From Candidatus Eiseniibacteriota bacterium (GTDB lineage: Bacteria; Arandabacterota; Arandabacteria; JAGLYR01): 9,378 nucleotides of DNA. The stretch is from the NCBI GenBank assembly GCA_023132135.1, contig JAGLYR010000228.1, positions 1-9,378 on the forward strand, read 5' to 3'. A program made the translations under genes and the position numbers. Positions 2,884-9,378 of this stretch are shown in pieces. The first letter of the stretch is position 1. Each line of letters begins with the position of its first letter. The notes under the pieces are model-generated. The model had not been told where the DNA came from. It saw nothing but the letters and a program-made list of their open reading frames with translations, and did not search any database.

Positions 2884-4368
2884 CTACCGGGCCAAGATCA
2901 TCTTGCGGGTGACCGTTTGCCCTCCCGCGCGCAATCTGCAGAAAAACACCCCCGCTCGCGCCTCAACTCCCGCCTCATTCCGGCCCGCCCACAGAACATG
3001 GTGCAGCCCTGCCGGGAACCACCCGTCGACGAGAGTCACGACTCTCTTGCCTTGGACGTCATAGATGTCGAGCCGAACGCCCCCCCCCTCCACCAGGTCG
3101 AAGGGGATCGCTGTCTCGGGATTGAAAGGATTGGGGTAGTTCTGCCCCAGGGCAACCGCCGGCCGAGCATAATGCTCCGGATCCAGAACCACGTGCAGGT
3201 ACCATGGCGGCTGCACAAAGGCAATATCGAAGGGCGGGAGCCCCACATCGATGGCTTCGAGCAACCCGTTGGTTCCGGTGTCGTAGATCCGCACACGCGG
3301 ATTTGTTGCATCCCGGTCGCAAAGGTACAGTTCTCCCTGCGAGTTCAGTTCCATTCCCGCCATGGAGGATCCCATCCCGCTCATCTGCTGACAGAGTGTA
3401 TCGATGACCGTTCCCGTGGAGGGGTCGAATTCCACGAGGCGTGCGAAGTTGTTCGGCCATGGACTCGGATCCATCACCACCGCGTAGCCCTTGCCATCGG
3501 GAGTCAACAACGCGTCGGACACATCTCCCCCCAGGCTGGTCTCCGAAATCACGACACCCTTGCTCTCCAGTGCAAAGGGGTCGATGGCCACGACTCCGCC
3601 GTCCAGCGCGCTCCACAAGCCAAGGCAGCCGACGATGAGCTGCTGCCGAGTGGGATCGAACCGGATTTCCGTGTACGGGTTCTCAAGTTCCAGCGTGATG
3701 GCTTGAACGCCCGCAGCTCCGGGATCCGTGTCCACGAGTGTGTCGGCCGCGACATCGATCACGGCGACCTTGCCTGGACCATCCGGCAGCCAGGTAGTGT
3801 GGTTGATGCTGTTGAGGGTAACGAAGAGTTTCCCGTCCACTATTGCCATCCGGTCCATTTCCGGAATGCCGTCTCCATCGGCTACGGGCGAGAGATCTAT
3901 GGAGTCCAGAATGGCTCCCGTGTAGGGATTGACGATGAGGAGCGTTTTCCACTCGAACCTGGACACGTACGCTTTCTCCGAAGACGCGACCCGGATGTCA
4001 TGAGGATTCGACCCGTTACCCACTGAGTACTGACCCGTGGTGGCGAAGCTCTGGTTGGGATCAACCAGCTGGATGTTGTCCGCCAGGTAGCGATTCACAA
4101 TGAAAACCATGTCCTCACCGTAGTCGTAGTGAGCAACAGCATCCGTGCTGGGTGTCTGGGGACTGATCCACACATCCCTCGGCGGCTCAATCTCGATCGT
4201 TCCATACTCGGCGGCGGACCAATAGTCCGTGGTCAGGAAGAACGCGTAGTCCTGATCCGCTCTCGAGCCTTCAGCGAGCGCGGATCCGCAGGCAAACCAC
4301 CCGATTGCCAGCGCCAGCGCAGCCGCCACCGTCGAAGTCCTGAATCGGAAACATCTGCAACACTGCAT
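2884..4368 (-). CDS. secreted beta-propeller protein with C-terminal FlgD/T9SS-like tail; candidate B12 capture protein
   Basis: A 494-residue exported protein. Residues 1-32 form a signal peptide with a hydrophobic core and an ALA cleavage site. Residues about 80-385 contain YncE/YVTN-type propeller blades, seen as recurring strand pairs such as KAYVSRFEWKTLLIVNPYTG, GKVAVIDVAADTLV, GGVVAIDPFALESKG, FARLVEFDPSTGTVIDT and VRIYDTGTNGLLEAID. Near the start is GSNPHDI, a blade-type motif. The tail (about 411-494) begins YPNPFNPETAIPFDL and ends TRKMILAR, the layout of the FlgD-Ig-like/type IX sorting-type domains common in FCB bacteria, which suggests surface display or release. An AAGGAG Shine-Dalgarno seven bases upstream fixes the ATG. 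The gene is 68 nt downstream of the btuB-like receptor, in the same riboswitch-controlled transcript. In Bacteroides, the propeller lipoprotein BtuG sits on BtuB and captures B12. An analogous role here is inference; no lipobox is seen. Confidence 0.88.
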   Translation of the reverse strand: MQCCRCFRFRTSTVAAALALAIGWFACGSALAEGSRADQDYAFFLTTDYWSAAEYGTIEIEPPRDVWISPQTPSTDAVAHYDYGEDMVFIVNRYLADNIQLVDPNQSFATTGQYSVGNGSNPHDIRVASSEKAYVSRFEWKTLLIVNPYTGAILDSIDLSPVADGDGIPEMDRMAIVDGKLFVTLNSINHTTWLPDGPGKVAVIDVAADTLVDTDPGAAGVQAITLELENPYTEIRFDPTRQQLIVGCLGLWSALDGGVVAIDPFALESKGVVISETSLGGDVSDALLTPDGKGYAVVMDPSPWPNNFARLVEFDPSTGTVIDTLCQQMSGMGSSMAGMELNSQGELYLCDRDATNPRVRIYDTGTNGLLEAIDVGLPPFDIAFVQPPWYLHVVLDPEHYARPAVALGQNYPNPFNPETAIPFDLVEGGGVRLDIYDVQGKRVVTLVDGWFPAGLHHVLWAGRNEAGVEARAGVFFCRLRAGGQTVTRKMILAR

Positions 4369-4436
4369 GGTTGAACTCCTTTCTATAGCCTAGGTGATTG
4401 ATGGAGAACGCCAGCGCTGCGCGCTCGCCTTGTCGC

Positions 4437-6491
4437 TTACAGATCGTAAATCAGCGTTCCATAGAACGACCGCCCGGGCATGGGAAATCCCATCACGTCT
4501 TCCACCTGTTCATCTGTGATGTTCTTGACTTCCGCAGTGAGTTCCATCCCGGGCAGACCCACAGGAAGAGTGACACCCATCCCGTGCAGGCGCCGCACCC
4601 GCACCGGATCCTTGCTGTTGGGCGGAATCCCGTTGTAGGAATTCCAATAGTTGCCGCCGATGTAGTCGAACTCGTAGAACACCGCCTTTCTTCCCCGACG
4701 CCAGGCCACTTTCCCAAAGGCGGCCAGCTCGGGTCGATCAGGCAATCTCTTGCCGTGCGCGTAGCTGACGGGTCCGGTGTTGACGGCGTCGAGCCCGGTC
4801 AGATTGCCCGAAAAGCTGAACCCCATCCAATCCCCGCAGCTGAGAGAGAATTCGTACCCCTCGATCTCTGCGCTGTCGATGTTCACGGCGCCCGCGGCGG
4901 ATCCTCGCCGGAACCACATGATCAGATTCTCAACCCTGGACCAGAAATGAGCGTACTCGATCGACACGAAACGCCCCGCCGACGAGGTGTGCTCCCAGCG
5001 CACTCCAAGATCGCTGTTCCGCCCTGTTTCCGGCTTCAGCTGAGGGCTAGGGTAGATGAAGCCCCGGTACCCAAACAGCTCCATCAGTGAGGGGACGCGG
5101 TGGTATCGCCCGTGGTTGGCCTTCAGGACAATCCCATATCCCAGGTCCGCCACAGCGCTAATGTGTCCCGAAATGCTCTCCCGGGAGAGTGTCGTGTCGG
5201 CCAGATCCCGCACATACAGGTGCAGGAAGGAACTGCGGGGAACTGCGCGGGTGCAATCCACATACTTCTCATACCGCGCGCCGGGAACCAGCCGGAAGCG
5301 TCCCGGGACGGCATCGATCTCATCCTCGAGTGTGAGAACCAGACTTCTCCTGCTCTGGCGTTGTCCTTCGATCGTCTCCGTGAATGTCTCTTCCGGCTGG
5401 AAGGACTCCTGCCGAACCTCCACCAGTCCTCGCAGAGACTGCCGTAGCCGCGGGAGGGGCACCTGCCAGCGCAGGTTTGCCCCGTAGGACACGCCTTGGT
5501 TCCTCACATCCGGTTTGGCCGGAGGTTTCTTCTCCTGCCGGTCCATGAAATGATCCATCTGGTAGACCGAAAACAGGCCAACGCTCAGGCGGAGCGGCAA
5601 TGAATGGGTGGCAGGCCTGTCCCAGGAGATGTGCAGGAGGTTGTGCGTCTTGGAGAGGGCCTCCGTCCTGGATTGGTACGTCCCATATCCCGGCAGGCCC
5701 TGCTTCCGGTGGAGAAACTGATCGGCAAGGACGAGCGTCCCCGGGCCCAGGGCGCGGCTCGCCTTCATGAATACCTCGCGCTCCTCGAGATGGTTGTTGA
5801 TCCGCCCGGCGATCTCGTCGTCATCCTTGTTGTACGGCGTCCCGTTATCGTCGAGGAACTCGAAGCTCCCCTCCGTGGAAAGGGCCGTCCCGACTGCCAG
5901 CACATCCCAACAAGAACGGGAAAACGAGCAGCTCGCCTGGTATCTCTGGGTGGAGAGAGATCCGTGCGACATCGACAAGCGGCCACGGGCGGAAGATGCG
6001 CCTTCCGTTACGAGATTGACCACACCCCCGATTGCGGACCCCGACAGGTCGAAGGCGCTGAACCCCCGGTAGACCTCAATGCGGGAGAGAGAGGACACCG
6101 GAAGGTCCGCCAGATCCACGAGGCCCGAGTGCGACTGGTTGAGGGGAATTCCATCGATAAAGATGCTGACCTGTTTGGAGGATGAACCGCGAATGGACGC
6201 CGTGCTGTAGGCTCCGTACCCGCCCGTGCTTTTCACGTGGAAGCTCACAGACTGGCTGAGACACTCGGCGGTGCTCGAGACCCGGCGGTGGGTTTCCTCC
6301 ATGGGAAGGATGGTGATAAAGGCCGGGCGGTTCCTGAGTTGCTCGATCTCCGAGAGACGGTCGGCTTCCACCAGGACTTCAGAGAGATGATAGACGGTAT
6401 CCCTGAAGGCGATCGTCTGGGACGAAGATGATCCGGGGATGAGAATCCCGGTGGAGATGAGGATGAATTTCAGAAGGCGCGTTCCCACCAC
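4437..6491 (-). CDS. btuB: TonB-dependent outer-membrane receptor, probable cobalamin transporter
   Basis: A 684-residue protein of usual size for a BtuB-type receptor. Residues 1-25 are a signal peptide. The plug domain (about 35-165) shows a TonB-box-like stretch near the mature N-terminus (YHLSEVLVEADR), ASIRGSSSKQVSIFIDG, LSRIEVYRG and GSAIGGVVNLV. The rest is a 22-strand-type barrel ending in VKNITDEQ and a C-terminal YGTLIYDL strand. An Asp-rich loop at 214-225 (DDNGTPYNKDDD) could bind calcium, as aspartate loops do in E. coli BtuB. The substrate assignment comes mainly from the cobalamin riboswitch 120 nt upstream; the receptor sequence alone would not prove it. Start is GTG at 6491; a second in-frame GTG at 6488 is better spaced from the GAGG Shine-Dalgarno. 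The propeller gene follows 68 nt downstream. No BtuCDF-type inner-membrane transporter is present in the window. Confidence 0.92.
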   Translation of the reverse strand: MVGTRLLKFILISTGILIPGSSSSQTIAFRDTVYHLSEVLVEADRLSEIEQLRNRPAFITILPMEETHRRVSSTAECLSQSVSFHVKSTGGYGAYSTASIRGSSSKQVSIFIDGIPLNQSHSGLVDLADLPVSSLSRIEVYRGFSAFDLSGSAIGGVVNLVTEGASSARGRLSMSHGSLSTQRYQASCSFSRSCWDVLAVGTALSTEGSFEFLDDNGTPYNKDDDEIAGRINNHLEEREVFMKASRALGPGTLVLADQFLHRKQGLPGYGTYQSRTEALSKTHNLLHISWDRPATHSLPLRLSVGLFSVYQMDHFMDRQEKKPPAKPDVRNQGVSYGANLRWQVPLPRLRQSLRGLVEVRQESFQPEETFTETIEGQRQSRRSLVLTLEDEIDAVPGRFRLVPGARYEKYVDCTRAVPRSSFLHLYVRDLADTTLSRESISGHISAVADLGYGIVLKANHGRYHRVPSLMELFGYRGFIYPSPQLKPETGRNSDLGVRWEHTSSAGRFVSIEYAHFWSRVENLIMWFRRGSAAGAVNIDSAEIEGYEFSLSCGDWMGFSFSGNLTGLDAVNTGPVSYAHGKRLPDRPELAAFGKVAWRRGRKAVFYEFDYIGGNYWNSYNGIPPNSKDPVRVRRLHGMGVTLPVGLPGMELTAEVKNITDEQVEDVMGFPMPGRSFYGTLIYDL

Positions 6492-6540
6492 GAGACCTCG
6501 CGTGACGGACGTATCCCGCGGAGCTCTCCCGGTGGAAACA

Positions 6541-6574
6541 GAAAACCCGACCTTCGCTGTCAGATGAGATCGGG
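6541..6574 (-). terminator. riboswitch-controlled intrinsic terminator
   Basis: In the minus-strand transcript, CCCGATCT (6574-6567) pairs with AGGTCGGG (6553-6546): eight pairs including one G-U, a 13-base loop, and then UUUUC (6545-6541). It lies between the cobalamin aptamer and the btuB start codon, so it would stop transcription before the gene. The left arm can instead pair upstream (see the antiterminator). Confidence 0.75.
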
Positions 6575-6593
6575 CGTACCCACCCCTCGACCT
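6567..6593 (-). promoter_or_regulatory. antiterminator alternative to the btuB leader terminator
   Basis: The hexamer AGGTCG (6593-6588) is identical to the first six bases of the terminator's 3' arm. It can pair with CGATCT (6572-6567), which is the terminator's 5' arm, in six pairs including one G-U. The two pairings exclude each other. In the B12-free state this upstream pairing would keep the operon on. How ligand binding releases the arm is not resolved from the sequence. Confidence 0.5.
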
Positions 6594-6613
6594 CGAAGAG
6601 TTCCGTGGGTTTT

Positions 6614-6770
6614 CCCTGGCAGGTCTCCTGGCTCATGGCTCCAGCGCCTTCCCCCGCCTTCCCGGTCTATTGACCCGTGGCCTGAAGGGGGTAGGCTCGC
6701 CAATCACAGTGGCGGGACCGCGGAGGCTTTGCACCTCACTTCCCGTTTTCAGTCCGTTCGGACACCAGGG
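6614..6770 (-). promoter_or_regulatory. cobalamin (adenosylcobalamin/B12) riboswitch aptamer
   Basis: On the minus strand the conserved core reads in order: GGGAAGTGAGGTGCAAAGCC, then GGTCCCGCCACTGTGATTGG, and near the 3' end the B12 box, GCCAGGAGACCTGCC. P1 closes the element: CCCTGG (6770-6765) pairs with CCAGGG (6619-6614). The aptamer is about 157 nt, a usual size for this family. It binds corrinoid and normally turns expression off. Here it precedes a terminator/antiterminator pair and then the btuB-like gene, so the receptor and the propeller protein should both be repressed when B12 is plentiful. The identification rests on the invariant boxes and the P1 pairing. Confidence 0.95.
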
Positions 6771-6797
6771 AATACACTCAGTTGTCGAACTGATACA

Positions 6798-6827
6798 TCT
6801 CTATCACAATGCCGGAGGCGTTGTCAA
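6798..6827 (-). promoter_or_regulatory. candidate promoter of the btuB-propeller operon
   Basis: A perfect TTGACA -35 box lies at 6827-6822 on the minus strand. The best -10 at 18-base spacing is TAGAGA (6803-6798), which matches only three of six positions. Transcription would start about 20 bases before P1 of the riboswitch. A 5-bp dyad, CAGTT-GTCG-AACTG (6779-6792), lies at the predicted start point. The weak -10 leaves the exact promoter uncertain. Confidence 0.4.
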
Positions 6828-6858
6828 GCTCCAACGACAGTCCGCGAACGGGCATCCG

Positions 6859-6887
6859 TTGACATCCAAGCCCGGGCAGAGTAGGTT
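6859..6887 (+). promoter_or_regulatory. candidate promoter of the kinase-regulator pair
   Basis: A perfect TTGACA (6859-6864) is followed after 17 bases by TAGGTT (6882-6887), a weak -10. An alternative is TTGAAT (6886-6891), 16 bases, TATGGT. Either would start transcription before the ATG at 6964. The TTGACA boxes of this promoter and the btuB promoter lie about 31 bases apart and point away from each other, so one bound regulator could affect both. Confidence 0.35.
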
Positions 6888-6963
6888 GAATGCGGCTTGG
6901 CCTGGATTATGGTTGTCTCTCGTATCGGTTGGGAATCGCTGTCCGCACAGGGGCGAAGTGGTT

Positions 6964-8733
6964 ATGGAAAAGGGAACTCGACAGGATCGGGGCCGGGGAG
7001 CAACTGGTCGGAAAAACCTCGCTGACTTCCGAATCCTGTCCCGGCAGATTCTGCAGCATGGAAGCCGCGGTCTTCTCAGAACCGAGTTCATGAACAAGAT
7101 CCTGGAGACACTTGTGGATTTCTCCGGATGTGACGAGGCCGGACTTGCCCTGAGCGAACGGGGGAAGTACTACAGATGCAGTCTCACCACTTCTCCGGAG
7201 CGGTGCTTCCGTTTTGAGACTCTGCCGCTGCCACAGAACGGGGACAAGGAGGTTGCCTGTGATCCTGGAAGCAGCCTTGGGATGATACGGCTCTGCCAAT
7301 GCGTTGCCAGTGGGCACACCGACAGGGAATCGCCGTTCTTCACGGAAGGCGGCAGCTTCTGGACAGGAGATACCGGGAAGGCAATCGTTTCTGAATCCGC
7401 GACCGCCGGTCAGCCGGATAGCGAGGAGATCCACCTCGACGGGCCATACCGGACCCTCGCACTGATCGCCCTGGCGGTGGAGGAAGGAAAAACCGGGCTC
7501 CTCACCCTGATGAGCAAGCAACGGGACTATCTCGACCGGGAGGACATCGAATTCTACGAGTGGATTGCCGAGGTTCTTGGCGTTGCGCTTGCTTCCCGCC
7601 GGACCCAGCTTGACCTGCGTGAGCGCGTCAAGGAGATCACTTGTCTGTATGGGATATCCCGCCTGGTGGATCCTCCGGGCGCGAATCTGTCCCACATCCT
7701 GCGGGGCATCGTGGATCTTCTTCCTCCTGCGTGGCTCTACCCTGAGGTTGCCTCAGCCGGGATCGATCTGGATGGGCACTGCTATCGGACTACCGATTTC
7801 CAGGAGGAAGGAGACCGACAGATGGCCGAGATCATCGTGGCGCGGCGGAGTCGTGGCTCCGTCTCGGTGGTCTATTCCGAGGAAAGGCCGGACCTGGACG
7901 AGGGTCCGTTCCTGAAGGAAGAGCGGCACCTGATCGACACAGTGGCCCGCGAAATCGCCCTCCTCCTCGAACGTCGCCAGTTCGAGGAGGACAAGGCGAA
8001 ACTCGAAGAGCAGTTGCGCCACGCAGACCGGTTGGCCACCGTCGGGCAATTGGCCGCCGGCGTGGCCCACGAGCTAAACGAGCCTCTGGGGGCGATTCTC
8101 GGATTCGCTCAGCTGGCCCGGAAGGACCCGGAATTGCCCGACCACCTTGGACAAGATATCGGGAGGATCATCTCCGCCTCCCTCCATGCGCGGGAGGTGA
8201 TCCGGAAACTGATGATCTTTGCCCGCGACGTACCTTCCCAGAAAACCCAGGTCAGTCTCAACCAGCTGGTTGAGGAGGGCCTGTTCTTCTTCGAAGGACG
8301 GTGCGCCAAAGGCGGGATTGAACTGGTGCGTTCGCTCAAGCCCGACCTGCCCGACATTGCAGCCAACGCGGGACAGATAAACCAGATTCTGATCAACCTG
8401 ATGGTCAATGCGATGCAGGCGATCCCTGAAGAAGGCAGGATTTCCGTGGAAACGGGGATCTCCGAAGGCCACGTTTTCCTTGCTGTGGAGGATACAGGCG
8501 TGGGGATGAGCAAGCAGATCCAGAGTCAGATCTTTCTCCCGTTCTTCACGACCAAAGACGTTGATGAGGGAACGGGCCTCGGATTGGCCGTGGTTCACGG
8601 CATTGTCACCTCACACGGGGGCTCGATCAAGGTGGAAAGCAGGACAGGACAAGGCACACGCTTTGAGGTCCGGCTGCCTCTCACGGAAGCCTCGTCTGGC
8701 GGAAAGGATGGGGCGGATGTCGTCCAAGGCTGA
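6964..8733 (+). CDS. GAF-domain sensor histidine kinase (soluble)
   Basis: A 589-residue protein with no membrane segment. Two GAF-like sensor regions precede the kinase core: about 40-215, and 222-340 (starting [12 protein letters not shown], a common GAF opening). The HisKA region follows, with the phospho-acceptor His369 in [17 protein letters not shown]. The ATPase domain has the N box (NLMVNAMQ, Asn482), G1 (EDTGVGM, 509-515), F box (FLPFFTTK) and G2 ([11 protein letters not shown], from 536). Residues 110-135 hold LCQCVASG and [13 protein letters not shown], a stretch I have the impression recurs in GAF-type kinases. The first GAF is cysteine-rich (56, 72, 81, 99, 111, 113). I chose the ATG at 6964 because the open frame continuing upstream to 6670 crosses the riboswitch and its promoter region and has no kinase-like content. 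The stop overlaps the response-regulator gene. The signal sensed is not evident. Confidence 0.9.
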
Positions 8734-9378
8734 GAAAGAGCGCATTCTCGTCGTCGACGATGCGCCCGACACTCTTGAGGTCCTGAGGAGAAACCTCACG
8801 GCAGAGGGCTATCGGGTCTTCACCGCCGCCCACGTCGCGGCTGCGGTCGAGATCCTCGAGTCGACACCCGTCGACCTGGTGATCACGGATTTCAAGATGC
8901 CCAAGGTCAGCGGCATGGATCTCGTGAGGCACGTTCGGGAGAACTTCAAAGATGTCGAGGTCATGATGATCACGGGCTATCCCTCCATCGCGGGTGCCGT
9001 CGAGGCGGTCAAGATCGGAGCTGAAGAGTACCTGGCGAAGCCTTTCACGGATGACGAACTTCTCTCCGCTGTGCAGCGGGTGTTGGACAAACTCCGTTCC
9101 CGCAGGATCGGCCCGTTGCCCCCTCGCGGGAGTCCGCTGTCCGCTCACGGTATGCTTGGGGAATCGCAGGCCATGCGCCGGATTGCCCGCGCCATCGCCA
9201 AGGTGTCAACCACTGCGGCCACGGTTCTCATCACGGGGGAGAGCGGCACGGGCAAGGAGCTGGTTGCTCGAGCTGTTCACTACAGCGGCTCGCGGGCTGC
9301 GGCTCCCTTTGTGCCTGTGAATTGCGGGGCGATCCCCGAGGGCCTGTTGGAGAGTGAACTCTTCGGACATGTCAAGGG
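8717..9378 (+). CDS. NtrC-type sigma54-activating response regulator, N-terminal part (cut by right edge)
   Basis: 220 codons are visible before the window ends. Residues 9-125 are a receiver domain: the acidic pair Asp14-Asp15, phospho-acceptor Asp58 in VITDFKMP, Thr86 in MITGYPS, and Lys108 in LAKPF. After a short linker, a sigma54-interaction AAA+ domain begins at about 147 ([10 protein letters not shown]). It has the Walker A loop GESGTGKE (174-181), then [21 protein letters not shown]; the GAFTGA loop expected next falls just outside the window. The full protein should be about 450 residues with a C-terminal Fis-type DNA-binding helix-turn-helix. It overlaps the kinase gene by 17 nt, so the two are surely co-transcribed and cognate. 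An alternative in-frame ATG lies at 8708. The 8717 start is preferred because AAAGG is then placed about 10 bases upstream. Its sigma54 target promoter is not visible here. Confidence 0.92.

Follow-up and report, generated by a model that had tools for sequence, protein, structure and literature searches.

A probable BtuBG-type corrinoid capture operon outside Bacteroidota, with a propeller lid predicted to be anchored by type IX secretion

The closest described counterpart of the locus presented here is the BtuBG system of Bacteroides thetaiotaomicron (BtuG1, BtuG2 and BtuG3; PMC6143338, PMC10404256). In BtuBG, a beta-propeller forms a lid on the receptor BtuB; its negative charge attracts corrinoids, which are bound in a central pocket until EL8, a loop of BtuB, drives them out toward the barrel (PMC10404256). 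In Bacteroides, BtuG proteins are lipoproteins that carry an export signal, and BtuG was reported to be exclusive to the Bacteroidetes, which was explained by its use as a weapon in gut competition for B12 (PMC6143338). Here we describe a two-gene operon in a 9,378-nucleotide stretch of DNA (the window), which is one entire contig (JAGLYR010000228.1) of the 3.4 Mb, 96% complete genome of Candidatus Eiseniibacteriota bacterium (GCA_023132135.1). Its phylum, named Arandabacterota in GTDB, is not Bacteroidota. The operon is headed by a cobalamin riboswitch and encodes a BtuB-like TonB-dependent receptor and an exported propeller, which ends in a tail like those of type IX secretion system (T9SS) cargo. 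We read it as an operon for corrinoid capture of the BtuBG type, found here outside Bacteroidota, in which a T9SS-anchored propeller lid would hand corrinoids to BtuB, and we put the probability of this reading at roughly 0.8.

The window shares with BtuBG a cobalamin riboswitch, an adjacent BtuB-type receptor and an exported acidic propeller, and BtuG is the best match to this propeller across the PDB by both sequence profile and fold. The net charge of the propeller domain is -33, in line with the -18e of BtuG2 (PMC10404256). Unlike BtuBG, however, the window propeller has no lipobox and carries a C-terminal T9SS tail, its identity to BtuG is ∼18-20% (from the structural alignment), it comes from another phylum, and its two-gene unit is without btuFCD genes. 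In its tail, the protein resembles T9SS type A cargo (Por_Secre_tail, TIGR04183), with a sorting domain over the curated cut-off, many such tails in the genome, and SprA. Known T9SS cargo consists mostly of proteases, adhesins, and glycosidases. Two other surface systems deserve comparison. The DUF4465 B12 binders (BtuJ) are surface proteins found across eight bacterial clades, and in Bacteroides they lie beside btuB under riboswitch control (PMC13398666); unlike the window propeller, they are beta-jellyrolls of a different family. The siderophore piracy system XusAB (XusB, PMC13142918) also pairs a TonB-dependent receptor with a propeller, and XusB is among our structural matches, but XusB is a lipoprotein, its ligand is a ferric siderophore, it does not match in the propeller sequence-profile search, and XusAB is not known to have a cobalamin riboswitch. 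A literature search, with subscription literature not covered, returned no paper on T9SS-anchored B12 proteins or a T9SS-anchored vitamin-capture lid, and none on BtuG outside Bacteroidota.

The riboswitch itself is unambiguous in score: the aptamer matches RF00174 over the full length of the model (positions 1-189) and scores 121.9 bits (E 6.6e-31; gathering score 31.5), and at 6784-6601 it is the sole cobalamin riboswitch in the window's genome. Between aptamer and receptor gene lies a terminator-like hairpin (Table 1). By eye, a hairpin and T run can be seen at the equivalent leader site in all eight genomes sampled from the phylum; an automatic fold did not recover the hairpin in every one of them. 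The stems differ yet still pair in some of these genomes (CCGGTCT/AGACCGG, GCCCGGC/GCCGGGC), and a stem that varies in sequence while its pairing is kept points to control via transcription termination, by which the riboswitch would probably govern the operon. The propeller gene begins 68 bp downstream of btuB, and beyond it ∼250 bp pass without a same-strand gene before one for an ArsR-type helix-turn-helix protein (2631-2287), so the transcription unit probably consists of two genes. The initial annotation of this DNA had described a cobalamin riboswitch heading a TonB-dependent receptor and an exported propeller, which the aptamer score and gene order bear out. Its span for the locus, 2884-6770, stops short of 6784, so that the last 14 riboswitch bases were missed.

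The association of riboswitch, receptor and propeller is not peculiar to this contig. Each of the eight phylum genomes has exactly one cobalamin riboswitch, always ahead of btuB, and the propeller directly follows btuB in all six with a continuing contig; the other two contigs end within btuB. Using a profile of six propeller domains, we then searched 378 genomes outside the phylum and found propeller relatives in 42, every one of which has a cobalamin riboswitch. In 37 of the 42, the propeller lies 0.26-5.9 kb downstream of that riboswitch on the same contig and strand, usually at a distance of ∼2.3 kb, which is the length of btuB. The other five comprise a contig that breaks off 150 bp ahead of the propeller gene and the four weakest matches (E 5e-8 to 3e-6), whose loci are uncut yet have no riboswitch close by and which were not counted as relatives. 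At E<1e-8, all testable propellers (35/35) are riboswitch-linked, and the chance of a given gene standing at such a riboswitch-downstream position is ∼0.001 each. A same-strand BtuB-like receptor adjoins the propeller in 31 of the 36 loci examined outside the phylum. Homologues of the propeller are thus found with the riboswitch and btuB and not mostly elsewhere, as the proposed link to B12 uptake would lead one to expect.

The arrangement of these loci varies. The gene order is reversed in L103, L108, and L111, and a tandem pair of BtuG-like propellers occurs in one riboswitch operon in L116 and L117 (G135, G271) and in L112 (G047); both propellers have lipobox-like N-termini in L116 and L117, and only the first could be judged in L112. 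Genome G151 has two propellers, one T9SS-tailed beside a riboswitch and btuB and the other with a lipobox on a contig without a riboswitch (L113, L114). At L115:7659-9074 and L118:7974-9242, propellers with an unusual GGGGH C-terminus stand ∼0.3 kb directly behind the riboswitch, with no recognisable BtuB beside them. At L124:7937-9853 (G065), a cobalamin riboswitch and a gene for a BtuB-like receptor precede a DUF5074-like propeller with a weakly dockerin-like C-terminal end.

The relationship to BtuG emerges at the level of the family. When a profile of 29 riboswitch-linked propellers was compared with all PDB sequences, the top ten matches were all BtuG1, BtuG2, or BtuG3 (E 5.7e-11 to 8e-7), and the first protein that is not a BtuG was a generic YVTN propeller (2e-4). 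A profile of 4 full-length proteins gave only FlgD, via the tail; BtuG surfaced once the profile was widened to the 29 propellers. Structure prediction agrees with the profile search. The full-length AlphaFold (AF) model (predicted local distance difference test, pLDDT, 61) is poor toward its N-terminus, and the propeller-only cut reaches pLDDT 68 with a predicted template modeling score (pTM) of 0.73. In a fold search against 350,542 PDB chains, BtuG1, BtuG2, and BtuG3 came at or near the top. With a second aligner, the nine best VIA rows were all BtuGs (Z 22.9-23.7; generic propellers ≤22), and the alignment with BtuG2 covers 266 residues at Z 23.5 and a root-mean-square deviation of 3.1, in a model whose first 81 residues have pLDDT <50. 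The profile match makes the window propeller a remote homologue of BtuG that occurs outside Bacteroidota. Strictly speaking, a protein without a lipobox does not qualify as a BtuG lipoprotein; the window propeller resembles BtuG in ancestry and operon setting, and it most likely works like BtuG.

The 494-amino-acid propeller protein consists of a signal peptide, the propeller domain, and a C-terminal tail. Its N-terminal W-F-A-C is a poor lipobox, and phylum relatives share no conserved cysteine there. The tail scores 28.8 bits against TIGR04183, “T9SS type A sorting domain,” over the cut-off of 23; two Pfam models, PF13860 (21.4 bits) and PF18962 (18.6 bits), the latter being the counterpart of TIGR04183, stay under their cut-off of 27. 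A sorting tail of this kind occurs ∼112 times in the window's genome (112 matches, nearly all to the tail part). The machinery appears to be present as well: each of the eight phylum genomes has SprA (TIGR04189) at a score above cut-off, and each also encodes C25 peptidases, PorU-like or gingipain-like. Together, these results make T9SS export and anchoring of the propeller probable. They also agree with two points of the initial annotation, that the propeller has no lipobox and ends in a YPNPFNP T9SS-like tail, and that it represents a different anchoring solution in a different lineage; the latter draws support from the ∼112 tails in the window's genome, the SprA count, and the other anchors in other phyla. 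Its prediction of a propeller fold likewise held, with BtuG1, BtuG2, and BtuG3 as the best PDB matches and significant profile homology to BtuG, and its reading of the locus as a BtuG-like capture system in a different lineage is supported by the homology, the fold, and the operon linkage.

Among the genomes outside the phylum, 11 encode a propeller with a T9SS-like tail, and in many others the propeller has a lipobox start. Ten of the outside tails were scored, of which 4 reach the NCBI cut-off; the others are weaker matches to the same model or to FlgD, PorU, or PorZ C-terminal regions. The tails were called before SprA was searched for, and SprA then proved to be present in 11/11 genomes with a tailed propeller versus 2/23 with an untailed one (Fisher p 2.7e-7, among genomes that are partly related). 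On the propeller tree, the hypothesis that the tail arose once is weakly rejected (approximately unbiased test, AU p 0.03), but resolution is poor, with good support for 9 of 27 inner branches, so we claim no number of anchor switches. In L099, L100, and L111, a lipobox is followed by an N-terminal region of roughly 120-250 residues and then by the propeller; this region had no Pfam match in L099 or L100, the two that were scanned.

A T9SS tail need not hold a protein at the surface. Such cargo may be either released or anchored (PMC10202324), and the propeller might pass into the medium or capsule, scavenge corrinoids there as a freely diffusing protein of the HasA-like haemophore type, and then dock to the receptor. 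A clade in which neither lipobox nor T9SS tail was seen (L098, L106, L107) would suit such a soluble carrier. However, an anchoring signal, be it lipobox or T9SS tail, is kept in most relatives, and the usual arrangement of a single propeller gene next to the receptor gene fits a partner that stays bound. We therefore regard release as unlikely and a surface-fixed lid on BtuB as the better account.

The second alternative is that the protein is a generic secreted propeller of the YVTN/YncE type that shares the operon by chance, or aids receptor assembly, and binds no corrinoid. The propeller fold is very common; propellers resemble one another, and our structural matches extend to E. coli YncE, XusB, and WD40 propellers, so we do not use the fold alone as evidence of function and consider the sequence test the stronger one. 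No curated family names the propeller either: the region has no Pfam or NCBIfam match over cut-off, as is also true of the relatives' propellers, and a PDB search with the single protein came back empty. Yet the nearest solved sequences and folds are BtuGs and not E. coli YncE, and the riboswitch goes with the propeller in every testable phylum genome and in 37 of 42 genomes from outside it, positions that rule out generic propellers for nearly all of the outside matches. The propeller domain is also far more conserved than the tail, with 63-67% identity among phylum relatives and poor conservation of the tail, which is the pattern expected if a working head is joined to a general-purpose tag. 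Altogether, a bystander propeller is quite improbable.

The receptor has Plug (PF07715) and TonB_dep_Rec barrel (PF00593) domains in Pfam. It reaches 117.9 bits against TIGR01779, the nearest B12 equivalog model, under that model's cut-off of 599.7. PDB matches to the single receptor include the BtuBs of E. coli and B. thetaiotaomicron. A profile of 19 operon receptors is more telling: against the whole PDB, its top match is B. thetaiotaomicron BtuB1, which forms the receptor half of BtuB1G1, over the full length (E 6e-56), followed mostly by other BtuBs. By this profile, the receptor is a homologue of BtuB. That the pair imports another substrate, for instance a siderophore or cobalt chelate for which demand varies with B12 status, in the manner of XusAB with its different, DUF4374 propeller lipoprotein, is very unlikely: the siderophore-binding propeller XusB does appear among the structural matches and the receptor's top NCBIfam score is to a myxochelin receptor, far under cut-off, but XusB is absent from the 29-propeller profile matches among PDB sequences where ten BtuG sequences are found, the receptor profile ranks B12 receptors over siderophore receptors, and a cobalamin riboswitch controls the locus in every phylum genome.

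If the operon is indeed a BtuBG-type capture system, it could work as follows. When corrinoids are scarce, the riboswitch would let transcription pass the terminator-like hairpin, and BtuB and the propeller would be made. The propeller would cross the inner membrane via Sec, and the T9SS would export it and fix it on the cell surface through its C-terminal tail. There it would form a lid on BtuB, bind corrinoids tightly, and hand them to BtuB for TonB-driven import. B12-binding domains are present in all eight phylum genomes.

Several points weigh against this interpretation. The riboswitch, operon linkage, BtuB and BtuG homology, T9SS tail, and SprA presence are computed results; corrinoid binding, a lid complex with BtuB, T9SS export and anchoring, and control by termination are inferred from them. 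The homology to BtuG is seen at the profile level only, as the window propeller alone finds no BtuG, and no homologue, among PDB sequences. The propeller-only model is moderate, with the low-confidence first 81 residues, so seven blades are not established, and the lead of the BtuGs over unrelated propellers is a Z of ∼2 in a fold class that is common. The genomes in the SprA comparison are related, and its cases are not fully independent; moreover, SprA is the one T9SS-specific core component tested. Finally, among the eight phylum genomes (G000-G007), a BtuC-type permease (FecCD) was not found in that of the window and gave weak matches in the others, which leaves the inner-membrane step unaccounted for.

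Table 1. Positions of the features discussed, in the window unless a locus is given
Feature	Positions	Strand	Basis
BtuG-like exported beta-propeller with T9SS tail, 494 amino acids	2884..4368	-	profile, fold, tail models
T9SS type A sorting domain / FlgD-Ig-like tail, residues 404-494, YPNPFNP...	2887..3159	-	TIGR04183
Beta-propeller domain, residues 40-391	3196..4251	-	conservation, AF model, PDB fold matches
Signal peptide region, residues 1-33, MQCCRCFRFRTSTVAAALALAIGWFACGSALAE	4270..4368	-	by eye; no good lipobox
BtuB-like TonB-dependent receptor, 684 amino acids, GTG start	4437..6491	-	PF07715, PF00593, TIGR01779 (sub-cut-off), receptor profile
Terminator-like hairpin, probable expression platform	6546..6574	-	scan; CCCGATC...GGTCGGG then TTTT
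Cobalamin riboswitch aptamer, RF00174	6601..6784	-	covariance-model match
DUF4136-type or similar small protein	L002:2240-2848, L004:4577-5161, L036:1279-1803	same strand as riboswitch	Pfam match tested in L002

The surroundings of the operon hold a few other features. Just past the propeller gene, at 2808-2865, there is a perfect 15-bp tandem repeat (CCTCTCTCCTTCTCT, 3.7 copies) flanked by more short CT-rich and GA-rich repeats. A 269-amino-acid open frame (1387-2196, + strand) between two regulator genes has no match in Pfam or NCBIfam. On the other side, at 6670-9376 (+ strand), a GAF histidine kinase and an NtrC-type response regulator are encoded divergently, beginning beside the riboswitch; the earliest start codon of the kinase frame falls inside the aptamer, so its true start is probably further on. 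In several phylum genomes, a gene for a small DUF4136-type or similar-looking protein precedes the riboswitch and shares its strand.

The spread of the system over many phyla (42/378 genomes outside the phylum) goes beyond the initial annotation. We consider it somewhat more probable than the contrary that the BtuB-propeller pair is old and crosses phyla, that it is no speciality of Bacteroides in the gut, and that its propeller has changed its mode of anchoring at least twice, between T9SS tail, lipid, and neither, according to the secretion route of the host lineage. Anchoring here amounts to a natural experiment, in which one lid may be lipid-anchored, T9SS-tailed, or unanchored, and the tail tracks SprA. 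Neither Pfam nor NCBIfam has a name for these propellers; once a family is defined for them, many proteins annotated as hypothetical could be recognised as candidate corrinoid binders. Finding the same operon logic in an uncultured phylum, with at least one member whose record name is of a kind given to marine-sediment genomes, and in dozens of other genomes suggests that surface corrinoid capture is a general solution of B12 scavengers.

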